A stretch of DNA of 9,310 nt from NCBI GenBank assembly GCA_016783505.1, contig JADHWK010000073.1:1-9310 (forward strand), read 5' to 3'. Made by a program: the position numbers and the translations under genes. The DNA comes from Candidatus Zhuqueibacterota bacterium. GTDB taxonomy: Bacteria > BS750m-G25. The notes beneath the pieces were generated by a model that did no database searches, was not told where the DNA came from, and was given only the letters and a program-made list of their open reading frames with translations. The first letter of the stretch is position 1. Each line of letters opens with the position of its first letter. This document shows positions 1 through 5,628 of the stretch, one piece after another.

Positions 1-1023
1 CTCTTTCAAACGGTAGAAACGCCGATGGTCCTTCCCTGAAAGCTCGTCCCACTCCAGCTCATACTCCTCCAATCGTTTTTGTGACACATTCTCTTCCCTG
101 ATCGCCCGAGCGGCCACCTGACCGGCCAGCCTTCCCGCCTCCATGGCGTTAATAATTCCACCTCCGCTCATAGGGTTAGACTGATGAGCTGCATCCCCGG
201 CTAACATAAACCCGTTGGTCACCATTCTTTTCACGGGTTTATCAATGGGTACCCCACCGGCCACCATGGTAAGGATGGCCGCCCCCGGAAACCGTTTTTC
301 AACAAACTCATTTAAATAAGAAAGGGGGGAACGATTCTTCACATAATCCCCGCGGATTCCGATACCGACGTTGGCCAACCTCTCCCCTTTAGGGAAGATC
401 CAGACGTAGCCGCCCGGGGCCACTTTTTTGCCGAAGAAGAAGTCGCAAAATCGTTGGTCAATGGCGGAATGGGCTAGGGTCATCTGAGCACAGATCTCCA
501 TGTTACGAGGAGTGGTCATGGTACGCAGACCGGCCCAGCGGCCGGCACGGGACTCTACCCCATCAGCACCGATTACCACCTGAGCCCCGATCATCTGTTC
601 CCGGCCATCGTAAAGGACAGTCACCCCCTTCACCCATCCGTTTTCCCGGATTAGACCGTTCACAAAGGCCTTAGTCAATATTCGGACACCCCTGGCCGCC
701 GCTTGCCTGGCCAGCTCATAATCAAACACCTTGCGATTTAGGATATAACCCAATTCTTGGCTGTATACGGGAACCACCGTCCCATCAGGGGCGATGAACC
801 GAACCCCATCAATGCGGTTAGCAATCCAGCGGTCATCCGGTTCCATAAACTCTTTTAGCCCCTTCACCCCCACCCCCTCGGCGCACCTCACCGGAACGCC
901 TATCTCCCGGTCCTTCTCCAGAAGAAGAACGCTAACTCCCCCCTCAGCCGCTGTCCGGGCCGCCAGCAACCCCGCCGGCCCCCCGCCGACCACGATGACA
1001 TCATAAGATTCTTTGAAAACCAA
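1..1023 (-). CDS. Geranylgeranyl reductase family FAD-dependent oxidoreductase (3' end cut by window)
   Basis: This FAD flavoprotein belongs to the geranylgeranyl reductase (GGR) family, which saturates double bonds in prenyl chains of lipids, quinones or chlorophyll. 341 residues are visible and the C-terminus runs off the left edge; relatives are usually about 380-400 residues. An N-terminal dinucleotide-binding motif VIVVGGGPAG lies at residues 9-18, a PVRCAEG cysteine segment near residue 48, GADG at 152-155, the family hallmark YVWIFPKG at 206-213, and the FAD-binding motif GDAAHQSNPMSGGGI at 276-290. I chose the TTG at 1023 because a GGGAG-type ribosome site lies 6 bases upstream. An in-frame GTG at 1041 has no such site, and an ATG at 1037 is out of frame. 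The ferredoxin gene just upstream is its likely electron donor. The family call is firm; the prenyl substrate is unknown. Confidence 0.9.
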   Translation of the reverse strand, partial: MVFKESYDVIVVGGGPAGLLAARTAAEGGVSVLLLEKDREIGVPVRCAEGVGVKGLKEFMEPDDRWIANRIDGVRFIAPDGTVVPVYSQELGYILNRKVFDYELARQAAARGVRILTKAFVNGLIRENGWVKGVTVLYDGREQMIGAQVVIGADGVESRAGRWAGLRTMTTPRNMEICAQMTLAHSAIDQRFCDFFFGKKVAPGGYVWIFPKGERLANVGIGIRGDYVKNRSPLSYLNEFVEKRFPGAAILTMVAGGVPIDKPVKRMVTNGFMLAGDAAHQSNPMSGGGIINAMEAGRLAGQVAARAIREENVSQKRLEEYELEWDELSGKDHRRFYRLKE

Positions 1024-1048
1024 GGCTCTCTCCCATCCCACTCAAACT

Positions 1049-1231
1049 TTAAACCATATCTTCTTGAAAGGTCAGCGCTTCAAATGGACAGACATGAACA
1101 CAGTTCAGACAATCCGTGCAGGCTTCCTTGTCTATAACTATTTTGGCCTCATATAGTTCGATGCAATCAGCTGGACAGACGGCCACACACACCCCGCAAA
1201 AGTCACATCTTCCTTCCCTAATTTCGATCAT
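1049..1231 (-). CDS. 2[4Fe-4S] ferredoxin
   Basis: A 60-residue bacterial-type ferredoxin, a soluble low-potential electron carrier. Two complete cluster motifs CxxCxxCxxxCP are present: C9-C12-C15-C19-P and C38-C41-C44-C48-P. In this family the fourth cysteine of each motif ligates the other cluster. An extra cysteine, C23, follows the first motif. The longest open frame begins at a TTG at 1246, inside the upstream prenyltransferase gene. The ATG at 1231 is preferred because AGGTGAGG lies just before it. With this start the gene is 4 bases after the UbiA stop, implying translational coupling. It sits between a prenyltransferase and a GGR-family reductase, so it probably feeds electrons to that reductase. 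Methanosarcina has a comparable ferredoxin-GGR partnership. The pairing here is inferred from position. Confidence 0.92.
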   Translation of the reverse strand: MIEIREGRCDFCGVCVAVCPADCIELYEAKIVIDKEACTDCLNCVHVCPFEALTFQEDMV

Positions 1232-1235
1232 TTCC

Positions 1236-2201
1236 TCACCTGCCAATGACTGGATAGATCACATCAAACCGGGCCCGATAATACCATCGGGTGGCTAAAA
1301 AGACGACTCCCAGAAAAATTAAATAAATGGGAAACAATAATGAAACTAAAAAGACAAACACACGTCCGCTGGCCTGAGAAGAAATGAGAAAGGTCCTCTT
1401 GTCCTTTTTGATCAACGCCCGGACAAAAAAGGGTAAAGAAATAACGGCGGCCACAAGACAGATAGGATTGTTTTGAATCACGCTGAAAATTATTGCCAAC
1501 CCCAGCAGGCCCGTGCTTAACAGAGCGGCATTTCTCATCCCCAAAAAAAGACCAGTTGTAACGTCCCCGTTGTTTTGGTCCCCACAATTATCTGGAATGG
1601 TGGTATTCACAAAGGTCGCTCCAACCGCCAACACATAAGGTAGAGAAAACCAGAAGACCTTATGGGAATAGGGGGCTACCGTCAGCCAACCGACCAAGAA
1701 GGCTACGAAACCGTATCCCAAGGCATTAAACAATAAGTCCCAAAAGGGTCTTCCTTTGAACTTAAAAGGAGGAACACTGTATAAAACCCCCATGAAAAAG
1801 GAAACAACAAACAATAGAACCAATGGAAATGAAGAAGAGAGCATCAAAACAGTACAGATCAGCACAAGCAAAACGGTTTCTAACCTTGCTTGTTTAAGGG
1901 AAATTAAGCCTTTGGGAATAAAAAACAATTTGTCATTAATCAAGTCCGATTCCCGATCATAGATTTGATTAATTATATATATAGCTCCCATTAGCAGGGT
2001 GTAAGCCAGCCAGACGTACCACACCCTCTCCGAAAAGAAAAACCTGGTCAACTCGGGAAGGTATTCTTGGTACCATTGTAGAAATCCTGTAAAGGGAACG
2101 ACCTTCCCCTGGGTTTTCAGCCAGCCGTGATAAAATCCCAATAAAAAAAATGTCCACACCGGTATCAGGATAATCGGCCGCAGGAAGAAGAGGTAATCCA
2201 A
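1236..2201 (-). CDS. UbiA-family membrane prenyltransferase (start codon uncertain)
   Basis: An integral membrane prenyltransferase that moves a polyprenyl group from its diphosphate to an acceptor. It shows about eight or nine hydrophobic segments and both aspartate-rich motifs. The first is NxxxDxxxD at N78-D82-D86 (NQIYDRESD). The second is a D204/D208/D213 cluster (DNCGDQNNGDVTT). YSVPPFKFKGRP at 141-152 matches the family's YSxPPxRxK loop. The segment after motif 1 reads KLFFIPKG instead of the common RPIPSG, so it is a divergent member and acceptor specificity (glycerol phosphate, quinone precursor or other) cannot be assigned. The only conventional start is TTG 2201, but the strong GGAGGT site lies about 33 bases upstream and the frame stays open to 2240. 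The true protein may therefore be 8-10 residues longer. It is followed closely by ferredoxin and a GGR-family reductase. Confidence 0.88.
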   Translation of the reverse strand: MDYLFFLRPIILIPVWTFFLLGFYHGWLKTQGKVVPFTGFLQWYQEYLPELTRFFFSERVWYVWLAYTLLMGAIYIINQIYDRESDLINDKLFFIPKGLISLKQARLETVLLVLICTVLMLSSSFPLVLLFVVSFFMGVLYSVPPFKFKGRPFWDLLFNALGYGFVAFLVGWLTVAPYSHKVFWFSLPYVLAVGATFVNTTIPDNCGDQNNGDVTTGLFLGMRNAALLSTGLLGLAIIFSVIQNNPICLVAAVISLPFFVRALIKKDKRTFLISSQASGRVFVFLVSLLFPIYLIFLGVVFLATRWYYRARFDVIYPVIGR

Positions 2202-2234
2202 ACACGCCAGAAATTTCTTTTTGATAGGAATTCT

Positions 2235-2240
2235 ACCTCC
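2235..2240 (-). promoter_or_regulatory. Strong Shine-Dalgarno site upstream of the UbiA gene
   Basis: Minus-strand GGAGGT directly follows an in-frame TAA at 2243-2241. The next in-frame codons downstream include ATT (2231), ATC (2225) and CTG (2210), before the first TTG (2201). No ATG or GTG in this frame lies within normal distance of the site. This suggests initiation at a rare codon, or a sequence error. Confidence 0.6.
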
Positions 2241-2263
2241 TTAAACAGAATTACTGTACAATC

Positions 2264-2728
2264 TCAATCTAAGGCGAAAACCAAACCAATTCCTAAACCC
2301 ATACCAACGACATCGGTCACCAGATCTTTCCAACTGGCATTATGTCTGTTGGGATGTTTAGCGTCATAGCACTCTTTGGCCACCCCTAAGGTGAGGGTAA
2401 AACCGGCACTAAAATAAAGGGTCCCCTCCGGGGTATTATGGAATTGATAGCGGTAGACGTAATAACTGGTGGAGGACAGAAGTGCACTGACCCCCAAGTG
2501 CAGGGCCTTATCCCAGGCCAGCCATTTATCCTCCGGTGGGGTCTTGGGTTTTAAAAATGATTTTATCCAAACGCAAATGGTACTAGCAACAGGGTAGTCA
2601 ATCCCTTTACCCGTAGTTGCTGCTCCTACCGACTCGCCTGAGGAAACAGGCAGAGCGAACCCCTCAGAAGCGAAAAAAAGAGCAACTGATAATAATAATA
2701 AAAGATAAAAGAATCTCGATAAAAACAT
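2264..2728 (-). CDS. Small exported DUF2279/YfiM-like protein
   Basis: A 154-residue protein with an N-terminal hydrophobic signal sequence (residues 1-25) and probable membrane-embedded helices after residue 75. The conserved pattern is DKxxH at D73-H77, GxxKExxD at G115-D122 (GVAKECYD), and SWKDLVTDVVG at 132-142. This resembles the DUF2279/YfiM group of periplasmic or membrane-associated proteins, whose function is not established. The ATG at 2728 lies 4 bases after the stop of the HD-domain gene and has only a weak ribosome site, so it is probably translated by coupling. The UbiA gene follows after about 30-60 bases, so this protein may be co-transcribed with the prenyl-lipid module, but nothing links it functionally. 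The family assignment is by motif memory and moderate in confidence. Confidence 0.75.
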   Translation of the reverse strand: MFLSRFFYLLLLLSVALFFASEGFALPVSSGESVGAATTGKGIDYPVASTICVWIKSFLKPKTPPEDKWLAWDKALHLGVSALLSSTSYYVYRYQFHNTPEGTLYFSAGFTLTLGVAKECYDAKHPNRHNASWKDLVTDVVGMGLGIGLVFALD

Positions 2729-2732
2729 ATAT

Positions 2733-3281
2733 TTATAACCCTAACTCTTTATCAATGGATTGCATGGCCTTCAGGGATAGGTTCAAAAACGCATCTAAGT
2801 CGAGCCCCAACTTCTGACAATCGGACATCTGTTCCCGGCTGGCCCCGGCGGCAAATCTTTTTTCTTTAAATCGTCTTTTCAGAAAACTGATGTCGAGGTT
2901 CTTCAGCTTTTTCGAAGGGTGCATCAGGGCGCAGGCCACGATGAACCCCGTTAGGGGATCCACGGCCCACAGCGCCCAGTCCATGCGACTTCGGGGCTCG
3001 GCCTTTTGGTTATGGCATTTTATCGCATGAATAATATCCCCACTTATTCCCTTCTCTGAAAGAATATCGGCGGTAATCAGGGTGTGGTGGTCGGGGTCGT
3101 CTACGGTCTGATCATAGTCTAAATCATGAAGGAGACCGGTTAACTCCCACGTAGAGACGTCTTCATCGAAATGCCCAGCCAGGGCACCCATCACCGTTTC
3201 GACAGCCAACATATGTTTGATCAGGTTTTTGTTGGAAACCTTCTCTTTTACTAAAATCAGCGCCTCCGCTCTCGATAACAT
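2733..3281 (-). CDS. HD-domain metal-dependent phosphohydrolase
   Basis: A 182-residue stand-alone HD-domain protein. The metal-binding signature H...HD...D is complete: H23 (KHMLAVE), H52-D53 in GLLHDLDYD, and D108 (WAVDPLTG). Additional histidines at 65-66 (DPDHHT), 85 and 90 are typical of HDIG-type domains. HD proteins hydrolyse phosphate esters of nucleotides or related compounds; the substrate cannot be read from the sequence. The start is well supported: AGGAGG lies 4 bases before the ATG at 3281. The gene begins about 85 bases after the transporter stop and ends 4 bases before the DUF2279-like gene, so those two form a tight pair. No regulatory output domain is present. Confidence 0.88.
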   Translation of the reverse strand: MLSRAEALILVKEKVSNKNLIKHMLAVETVMGALAGHFDEDVSTWELTGLLHDLDYDQTVDDPDHHTLITADILSEKGISGDIIHAIKCHNQKAEPRSRMDWALWAVDPLTGFIVACALMHPSKKLKNLDISFLKRRFKEKRFAAGASREQMSDCQKLGLDLDAFLNLSLKAMQSIDKELGL

Positions 3282-3366
3282 AGATCCTCCTAAAAACCTA
3301 GGGCTTAAAATAACCTTTATTTTCGGATCAGACTATCTGATTTTTGTCGTAGTCCTGTGTACCCGC

Positions 3367-4716
3367 TCAGATTTTACCGGCAATTCCCGCCATTAAGGTG
3401 ATGAGGATAAACACCGAGGAGATAATCAGGATGATCCTCACTGCTGGGGGCTTCAGTGGGAAATGAGAATAGCCGGACCGGATTTCCTCCACCAATCCTT
3501 CCGGCCCCCAGACCCAGGCGATGAACAGGGCCACCAATAACCCCCCGATGGGCAACATATATTTGAAGGACAAATAGTCCATAAAGTCAAAAAAGGTTTT
3601 CCCCAGAAATACAGTTACCCCTTCCATCACTCCATAGGAGAGGGACGCCGGCACCCCCAATAGGAAAATAGCCCCTCCAAAAACCAGGGTCGCCCGCTTC
3701 CGCGACCATCCCTTTTCATCCACAAAGTAGGCGGTGACTACCTCCATTAAGGAGACAGCCGAGGTTAAGGCGGCGATAGCGAGGAGCACAAAAAAGAGAA
3801 CACCGAAGAGGAATCCACCGGGCATGCGGGTAAAGACAGCCGGTAGTACGTGAAATACCAGTCCTGGCCCTGCTGCCGGGTTGAGTCCCATGGCAAAAAC
3901 AGCGGAGAAAATAGCCACCCCTGCCACCAGGGCGATAAGGGTGTCCAAAATCACGATAGCAAAGGCTGCTGAGATAAGGTTAGCACCCTTGGACAAATAA
4001 CTCCCATAGGTGATCATTGCCCCCATGCCCAAGCTCAAGGTGAAGAAGGCATGTCCAAGGGCAACTAAAATGGCGTCACCGGTCAATTTACTAAAATCGG
4101 GCTTCATCAAAAAAATCAGTCCTGCCTTTGACCCGGGCAAACTAATCCCCCGGATAACCAAAGCCAACAGGATGATCACCAGGGTGGGCATCAGGATTTT
4201 ACACCACTTTTCGATCCCCTCCTTTACCCCTTTGATTACGATTAACACCGTCAGACCCATAAACAGGGCATGATACCCCAGCGGGATCCATGTGCCCCCG
4301 GAAAATTCTTCAAAATGGCGACCAGCCTCGGCGGGATCGTGAAATTGGGAAAAGGTCCCGGTAACGGCTTTTACGATGTAACCAATCGTCCAACCCGCCA
4401 CCACACTGTAGTAAGAGAGAATCACAAAACCGCTGGCCACTCCCAGGGTGCCGGCTAAAAACCAGTAGCCGGTGGGACGAAGGGTAAGGTAGGCCCCGAC
4501 AGGGTTTTTCTGGGTACGGCGACCGAGGACAAACTCAGCCACCATGATGGGCATCCCTACCAGAATGATTGACAACAGGTAGACGAGGATAAAGGCCGCC
4601 CCCCCGTACATTCCGGTAACAAAGGGAAACTTCCAGACATTACCCAATCCCACCGCTGACCCAGCCGCCGCCAGCACAAAACCAAATTTTGATCCCCAAT
4701 GCTCCCGGACCGCCAT
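3367..4716 (-). CDS. Sodium-dependent amino-acid transporter, SLC6/NSS (SNF) family
   Basis: A 449-residue polytopic transporter with about 11 transmembrane helices, similar in length to the bacterial family member MhsT. Helix 1 carries the family signature GSAVGLGNVWKFP. G19, A21, V22 and N26 align with the LeuT sodium-site residues G20, A22, V23 and N27. The unwound helix 6 reads HAFFTLSLGMGAMITYGSY, matching the LeuT FFTLSLGFG region. Helix 8 has AxxTS at A315-T318-S319, the rest of the Na2 site. Family members import amino acids or related amines with sodium; the substrate is not predictable here. The frame can begin at GTG 4722, but ATG 4716 is better because AAGGGG lies 5 bases upstream of it and the GTG falls inside that site. 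It follows the DUF5683-like gene after about 48 bases. Confidence 0.94.
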   Translation of the reverse strand: MAVREHWGSKFGFVLAAAGSAVGLGNVWKFPFVTGMYGGAAFILVYLLSIILVGMPIMVAEFVLGRRTQKNPVGAYLTLRPTGYWFLAGTLGVASGFVILSYYSVVAGWTIGYIVKAVTGTFSQFHDPAEAGRHFEEFSGGTWIPLGYHALFMGLTVLIVIKGVKEGIEKWCKILMPTLVIILLALVIRGISLPGSKAGLIFLMKPDFSKLTGDAILVALGHAFFTLSLGMGAMITYGSYLSKGANLISAAFAIVILDTLIALVAGVAIFSAVFAMGLNPAAGPGLVFHVLPAVFTRMPGGFLFGVLFFVLLAIAALTSAVSLMEVVTAYFVDEKGWSRKRATLVFGGAIFLLGVPASLSYGVMEGVTVFLGKTFFDFMDYLSFKYMLPIGGLLVALFIAWVWGPEGLVEEIRSGYSHFPLKPPAVRIILIISSVFILITLMAGIAGKI

Positions 4717-4764
4717 AGACACCCCTTAAAATCACCCATACCGTTTCCCGATTGTTCTTATTGA

Positions 4765-5628
4765 TTACCAACGAAGGCTTACCGAAATTACCGGACAATC
4801 GGTTAATTTTAAGTTAAAACTTAAATTTCCACTGGTATCAAAGTCTAAAAGATGGGCGTCCACATAAGCATCCCCCATAGAAACCAATATCGTACCCACC
4901 AACCACCATGAGGATTTCTTTAACAACTCCTCATACTCTATCTTCCTGGCCCCATAGTAGGCAGACACAATTGGAACACTGTCCATAAAATCCATCTCTT
5001 TTTGATGGTACTCATCGTATCTTACCTTTGAAAGGATAATTCGGTAAATCAAATAGCCCTCGAAGGTGAAGAACAATGATCCTTTCGCCAGCTTTTTGTT
5101 ATACCATTGACCCCAGCCGGGAAAAACCATGGATCGAATTAAGGCTCCCCTGGGGGATCCCATCCCTGCGGGTGCGGCTGGTGACCCGCTCTCCGCCCCT
5201 ATCTTCTGCCTGCCCCCCTCGTAGGCATCCAAAAAGTTCGCCACATGCAGGCCCCCTGTCCACCAGATGAATTTGTTGCGGTCATCGTAATAATAATTTT
5301 TCTCATAAATCAGATAGGGATCTGAATTCGTATTGATCTTCCTGACGACATCCAGATAGCGTTGATTTTGCAGATAAAATCCGGAAAACAACATGATTTC
5401 GGACCCCAGGATGATAAGACCCTTAAGCTTTTGTCCATTGGCCCATTGTCCCCAGCCTGGTATAAAAAGGGAGCGCCACAGAGCGCTTTTGGGTGGGGTT
5501 GGGTAATCCTTCTGATGGGAATCATTCCTAACCTTTCCCGGACAGGGGAGAGTAAAGAAAACAGTTATAAGAAGTACCACCCACCATTTCGCCGCTATAT
5601 TAATGGGTCTTTTCAAATTCTGATTCAA
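4765..5628 (-). CDS. Tandem DUF5683-like membrane protein
   Basis: A 287-residue protein with an N-terminal signal or anchor segment (about 14-30) and two homologous halves. Half 1 starts SALWRSLFIPGWGQWANGQ (48-66). Half 2 starts GALIRSMVFPGWGQWYNKK (161-179). Each continues with a hydrophobic segment, a tyrosine/charged region, a WW-containing segment, and then DAYEGG (134-139) or DAYVDAHL (253-260). The PGWGQ(W/I)YN motif is typical of DUF5683, a family common in Bacteroidota and relatives and of unknown function. The last 20 residues look like beta strands. The start is uncertain: the frame offers TTG 5628 and TTG 5616, neither with a visible ribosome site, and no ATG before residue 79. 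The envelope location is inferred from the signal segment. Confidence 0.8.
   Translation of the reverse strand: MNQNLKRPINIAAKWWVVLLITVFFTLPCPGKVRNDSHQKDYPTPPKSALWRSLFIPGWGQWANGQKLKGLIILGSEIMLFSGFYLQNQRYLDVVRKINTNSDPYLIYEKNYYYDDRNKFIWWTGGLHVANFLDAYEGGRQKIGAESGSPAAPAGMGSPRGALIRSMVFPGWGQWYNKKLAKGSLFFTFEGYLIYRIILSKVRYDEYHQKEMDFMDSVPIVSAYYGARKIEYEELLKKSSWWLVGTILVSMGDAYVDAHLLDFDTSGNLSFNLKLTDCPVISVSLRW

Follow-up and report, generated by a model that had tools for sequence, protein, structure and literature searches.

The gene set at the start of the window

The stretch of DNA analysed here (the window, 9,310 nucleotides) comes from a Candidatus Zhuqueibacterota bacterium whose genome (G000) is a 2.5 Mb draft, 59.9% complete. 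At one end of the window, genes for a UbiA-family prenyltransferase, a ferredoxin and a geranylgeranyl reductase (GGR) follow one another in that order on the minus strand, adjacent and co-directional as the first-pass annotation had described them:

2202 to 2245, minus strand: Shine-Dalgarno sequence (aaggaggt) and a 5' extension of the UbiA frame lacking ATG and GTG (sequence and translation)
1236 to 2201, minus strand: divergent prenyltransferase of the UbiA family, 321 aa when counted from the TTG at 2201 (PF01040 profile, AlphaFold model, family tree)
1049 to 1246, minus strand: 2[4Fe-4S] ferredoxin (Fer4 51 bits, Fer4_10 50 bits; the same small ferredoxin lies beside GGR in 9 further related loci)
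1 to 1041, minus strand: GGR of the archaeal digeranylgeranylglycerophospholipid-reductase type (TIGR02032, structure 3oz2, motifs)

The UbiA gene ends at 1236 and the ferredoxin gene starts at 1246, an overlap of 11 bases, and only a small gap separates the end of the ferredoxin gene (1049) from the start of the GGR gene (1041), an arrangement of overlapping or nearly touching stops and starts as in a translationally coupled operon. The C terminus of GGR is missing because position 1 of the window is base 1 of contig C12. Searches against Pfam retrieved PF01040 for the UbiA protein (75.5 bits, cut-off 34.2), Fer4 for the ferredoxin and GGR_cat (PF22578, 95.9 bits) for the reductase. The order UbiA, ferredoxin, GGR, whose conservation in relatives had been proposed as a check, recurs in genomes G044, G053, G332, G324 and G193, and modified versions of it occur in G298, G102 and G320; since it recurs in the first five of these, the set is not a chance arrangement.

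The beginning of the UbiA gene is unusual. A strong Shine-Dalgarno sequence lies at about 2240 and is followed in frame by ATT and ATC codons only, with no ATG or GTG start, and the first conventional start codon is the TTG at 2201. The true start probably lies upstream of 2201, at most at about 2237, and uses a non-standard codon, which may be ATT or ATC; the missing ATG or GTG suggests either that the start codon is a rare one or that the assembly is in error here.

Upstream of the three genes, YfiM-like, HD-domain, sodium symporter and DUF5683 genes occupy 2264 to 5628 on the minus strand, in an order largely kept in G044 (locus L028) and partly in G053 (L032). In several relatives purF precedes the UbiA gene.

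Archaeal-type reductase and adjoining ferredoxin

The window GGR scored 232.4 bits against TIGR02032 (GG-red-SF, cut-off 158.8), which places it among the archaeal-type GGRs, and the remaining best profiles are those of archaeal digeranylgeranylglycerophospholipid reductases. All of the features that define GG-red-SF are present (GxGxxG, PxxYxWxFP, RxxxD, LxGD and a conserved Cys), and the archaeal GGR motifs were all found in the window protein as GGGPAG, PVRCAE, RKVFD, PGGYVWIFP and LAGDA. The closest solved structure is the Thermoplasma digeranylgeranylglycerophospholipid reductase (3oz2, E 6e-68). Scores against BchP (129 bits, cut-off 343) and MenJ (54 bits) were far lower, and the contig-truncated GGR sequence stayed below the cut-offs of the two equivalog profiles for digeranylgeranylglycerophospholipid reductase (NF041160, 240 of 780 bits; NF041080, 177 of 580 bits). 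The GGR tree suggested by the first-pass annotation was built, but its deep branches are unresolved, and the archaeal affinity of the reductase therefore rests on the profile scores and motifs.

A similar ferredoxin adjoins GGR in the 9 further related loci outside the window, and weaker matches were found at 2 more. In Methanosarcina acetivorans, GGR requires a ferredoxin encoded at the same locus, which is its specific reductant (PMC10821996). The window ferredoxin is the probable electron donor to the window GGR.

The UbiA family and its genomic company

The UbiA protein is a member of the UbiA superfamily, as judged from its PF01040 score, its two Asp-rich motifs and Z scores of 22 to 25 to UbiA structures. 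It carries motif 1 as NQIYDRESDLINDKLF, motif 3 as DNCGD and a C-terminal YYRARFDVIYP. Its AlphaFold model (pLDDT 95.5) is a confident all-helical UbiA fold, and the structural matches include AfUbiA (4tq4, the best, Z 25.3) and DGGGP synthase (DGGGPS; 7bpu, Z 22.7). No NCBIfam equivalog was found for it. A sequence search against solved structures gave E 2e-6 for chlorophyll synthase and only 0.02 for DGGGP synthase; in contrast, the ordinary DGGGPS-type UbiA of a relative (G053) matched MjDGGGPS at E 6e-34. A chlorophyll synthase pair was considered and rejected, as ChlG is the best profile for the UbiA protein and yet scores 59 bits against a cut-off of 313.

Besides the window's own genome, 385 bacterial genomes were sampled with a profile built from 11 relatives, and 46 of them gave strong matches (176 bits or more, after which the scores fall to 143 and then 109). 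The tree covers 78 UbiA proteins, and the 43 family members in it form one side of a branch (SH-aLRT 86), separate from the DGGGPS, MenA, UbiA, ChlG and DPPR groups. The family joins the MenA clade and AfUbiA at one fork (SH-aLRT 91), but the MenA clade itself excludes it (SH-aLRT 99); the window protein falls outside MenA and the other quinone clades, so that the placement which the first-pass annotation had named as refuting its reading was not seen. Genome G102 carries two tandem family copies, one of them strongly diverged (L196, 3007 to 4936, minus strand).

The family is recognised by the signature NQxxDxxxDxxNxKLF ... YYxxRFxxxYP. Within the family, N78, D82, D86, D204 and D208 are invariant, as are K91, Y316 and P317, with R311 near-invariant. 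The KLFFIPKG stretch after motif 1, already remarked on from the sequence, is present, and its core is a trait of the whole family (N89 and K91 invariant across 42 sequences). Of the MjDGGGPS residues, those of the Mg/diphosphate motifs (N62, D66, D70, Y125, K130, D183 and D187) are kept family-wide, but R77, R175, E176, K179 and D180 are replaced family-wide, although the first four are invariant in DGGGPS and the last is present in 93%. According to a review, UbiA enzymes fall into groups that follow their acceptors, and the D180A change greatly lowers the activity of MjDGGGPS (PMC9385802). Because the Mg/diphosphate residues are kept and the DGGGPS-invariant ones lost, the sequences suggest an active enzyme with an acceptor other than that of DGGGPS. 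On the position of the family outside the MjDGGGPS clade, together with the five replaced residues, DGGGP synthase proper was rejected.

The archaeal route through DGGGP synthase, GGR and ferredoxin, which had been brought up for the three genes, fits GGR and the ferredoxin, but not the UbiA protein, which is not a standard DGGGP synthase; the relatives examined have a separate DGGGPS-type UbiA, and all 11 genomes classified on the tree have one family member and one DGGGPS-clade UbiA each. The wider expectation of archaeal-type prenyl-lipid chemistry was borne out, with an archaeal-type GGR beside its ferredoxin and a UbiA family that accompanies GGGPS across bacteria. Of the 46 genomes carrying the family UbiA, 41 have GGGPS, versus 25 of the 339 without it (odds ratio 103, Fisher p 3e-32). 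Counted per taxonomic family, it occurs in 30 of 33 with the UbiA family versus 18 of about 226 without it (p 2e-23), where the figure of about 226 is read from family labels and the test ignores shared ancestry above the taxonomic-family level. To call the window genes a self-contained set, as had been done, is too strong: in relatives, GGGPS and DGGGPS are encoded at other places in the genome, and searches of the window's own, 60%-complete genome found neither GGGPS nor a DGGGPS-type UbiA.

Five of the 46 family-bearing genomes have no GGGPS match. Four nearly complete genomes are of this kind (Delongbacteria G059/G081, and G388, G123 and G261). Of these, G059, G388 and G123 have a DGGGPS-type UbiA, which GGR adjoins in G123, and the family members of G059/G081, G388 and G123 group near the window enzyme on the tree. 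Either these genomes have a different GGGPS, or the first ether bond is formed there in some other way. The reductase is not obligatory, because G052, G006, G050 and G061 carry a family UbiA without a GGR match. The G1P dehydrogenase family (PF13685) was tried as a marker and was uninformative, as it gave a strong match only in G060, mostly weak matches otherwise, and a match in E. coli as well. In G060, GGGPS and GGR are neighbours of each other, apart from the family UbiA (L096, 6213 to 8109, minus strand).

A lack of linkage with the reductase in relatives, the other outcome that the first-pass annotation had named as refuting its reading, was not seen either, since the linkage holds in part of the family: GGR lies beside the family UbiA in 9 of 49 loci, accompanied by the ferredoxin (rough chance estimate p 1e-8). 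Loci with all three genes are scattered over the family tree (the window, L182, L028, L032, L179, L183, L184, L196 and L197). DGGGPS lies directly beside the family UbiA in two lineages, in L004 (Delongbacteria; UbiA, then DGGGPS) and in L182 (G320). The L182 locus holds the full cluster, with family UbiA, DGGGPS, ferredoxin, GGR and GGGPS sharing a strand over a span of 5.1 kb (6154 to 11274); its full order is polysaccharide deacetylase, family UbiA, DGGGPS, an RNA-methyltransferase-like gene, ferredoxin, GGR and GGGPS. Other neighbours among the 49 loci include CdsA (4), PgsA (4) and UppS (3).

The commonest neighbour is a polysaccharide deacetylase, present at 12 of the 49 loci and in 8 of them directly adjoining on the same strand. 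This may be a hint that the lipid carries a sugar; our literature search for a UbiA paired with a polysaccharide deacetylase retrieved no paper. Such genes lie at or near UbiA in L005, L027, L169, L171, L172, L174, L176, L182, L196, L200 and L201, and in L184 the deacetylase is farther away, on the opposite strand. LpxL-like, glycosyltransferase-like and heptosyltransferase-like genes are found near some family copies.

Proposed role and comparison with known systems

We consider it reasonably probable that the three window genes form one operon making and saturating an isoprenoid lipid, with the UbiA protein belonging to a separate family and using an acceptor within the same archaeal-type pathway. 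Because the family occurs almost only in bacteria with archaeal ether-lipid genes, its UbiA probably performs an extra prenyl-transfer step in the archaeal-type lipid pathway proposed for FCB bacteria. With its Asp-rich motifs, of the usual kind, the enzyme would bind a prenyl diphosphate (probably GGPP), and it would move the prenyl group to an acceptor other than GGGP; the likeliest acceptor is a further lipid of this pathway, one bearing glycerol or a sugar. The ferredoxin would then hand electrons to the FAD-containing GGR, which would saturate the prenyl chains.

Several other readings share part of this evidence. The UbiA protein could make a prenylated glycolipid or other envelope lipid, with the link to GGGPS reflecting the shared donor GGPP or host ancestry and not one pathway. 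The polysaccharide deacetylases and the LpxL-, glycosyltransferase- and heptosyltransferase-like genes agree with this, as do the family genomes without GGR; we nevertheless think it unlikely, given the DGGGPS gene adjoining the family UbiA in two lineages, the full cluster in G320 and the CdsA and PgsA neighbours. It is unlikely that the family is a fast-evolving second DGGGP synthase, catalysing the same reaction redundantly or under other conditions: the fold and the host genomes are the same, and in G320 it is clustered with GGGPS and DGGGPS, but its clade is separate, the DGGGPS residues listed above are replaced throughout, and an ordinary DGGGPS-type UbiA is already present in every classified genome. 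Quite unlikely, in our view, is that in some of these bacteria the family UbiA makes the first ether bond in place of GGGPS or, more generally, is a third ether-forming enzyme, which would yield membrane lipids with structures unseen in archaea.

A partly saturated quinone, made by a MenA-like UbiA and a MenJ-like reductase, appears very unlikely. The fork shared with the MenA clade and AfUbiA would fit it, as would the MenA-clade UbiA on contig C30 of the window's own genome, but the MenA clade is well supported without the family, and the reductase scores far higher against GG-red-SF than against MenJ. Two quinone markers were used, MqnA/D (PF02621) and MenB, and in six family genomes (G053, G029, G002, G044, G059 and G060) neither MqnA/D nor MenB over its cut-off was found; quinone prenylation by the family UbiA is unlikely because these genomes are without the markers, and on this absence and the tree a quinone enzyme was rejected. 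Four genomes, G006, G050, G061 and G008, do possess men or mqn genes, and in each of them a different UbiA is found close to those genes.

The preferred reading, an added prenyl transfer in the archaeal-type pathway, bears on the claim of archaeal-type "mixed" membranes in some FCB bacteria, which rests mainly on GGGPS and DGGGPS. The co-occurrence with GGGPS, together with neighbourhoods containing ferredoxin and GGR, DGGGPS, CdsA and PgsA, suggests an unassigned step in the bacterial pathway, and the lipid may therefore differ from archaeol. The family offers a specific gene to co-express with GGGPS, DGGGPS and the ferredoxin and GGR pair, and it can serve as a marker in the search for bacteria of this kind.

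Villanueva et al. (2020) proposed GGGPS and DGGGPS in FCB bacteria, tested them partly in E. coli and noted GGR (PMC7852524). Like the genomes considered here, those of Candidatus Cloacimonetes and the other FCB bacteria with that GGGPS, DGGGPS and GGR pathway belong to bacteria that carry archaeal-type ether-lipid genes, among them GGR; unlike here, a second UbiA is not described in the text consulted. Its DGGGPS search demanded 70% coverage together with a DGGGPS annotation or, where the protein was hypothetical, 90% coverage. Beyond this work, searches of the open-access literature for an additional UbiA in FCB bacteria retrieved no paper, and the family is, provisionally, apparently undescribed. 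The Methanosarcina acetivorans locus likewise unites GGR with a small ferredoxin gene, but the host is an archaeon and the consulted text mentions no third (UbiA) gene (PMC10821996).

Among UbiA enzymes, AfUbiA from Archaeoglobus fulgidus (4tq3 to 4tq6) is the best structural match and the nearest single tree row, but it shares only 20% identity and sits on a very long branch, in a tree that used an AfUbiA fragment only; the source consulted gives no physiological product for it. Chlorophyll synthase or BchG with BchP also presents a UbiA and GGR pair in one gene cluster (L206), and ChlG is the top sequence match of the window UbiA in both the solved-structure and NCBIfam searches; unlike that pair, however, the window UbiA belongs to another clade, and both proteins score far below the ChlG and BchP cut-offs. 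Compared with DGGGP synthase (MjDGGGPS, 6m31 and 7bpu), the family forms another clade without R77, R175, E176, K179 and D180, differs in its invariant K91, Y316 and P317 and near-invariant R311, and has 19% identity in the structural alignment, but it shares the UbiA fold and the Mg/diphosphate motifs and occurs in the same genomes as DGGGPS, sometimes in one gene cluster with it.
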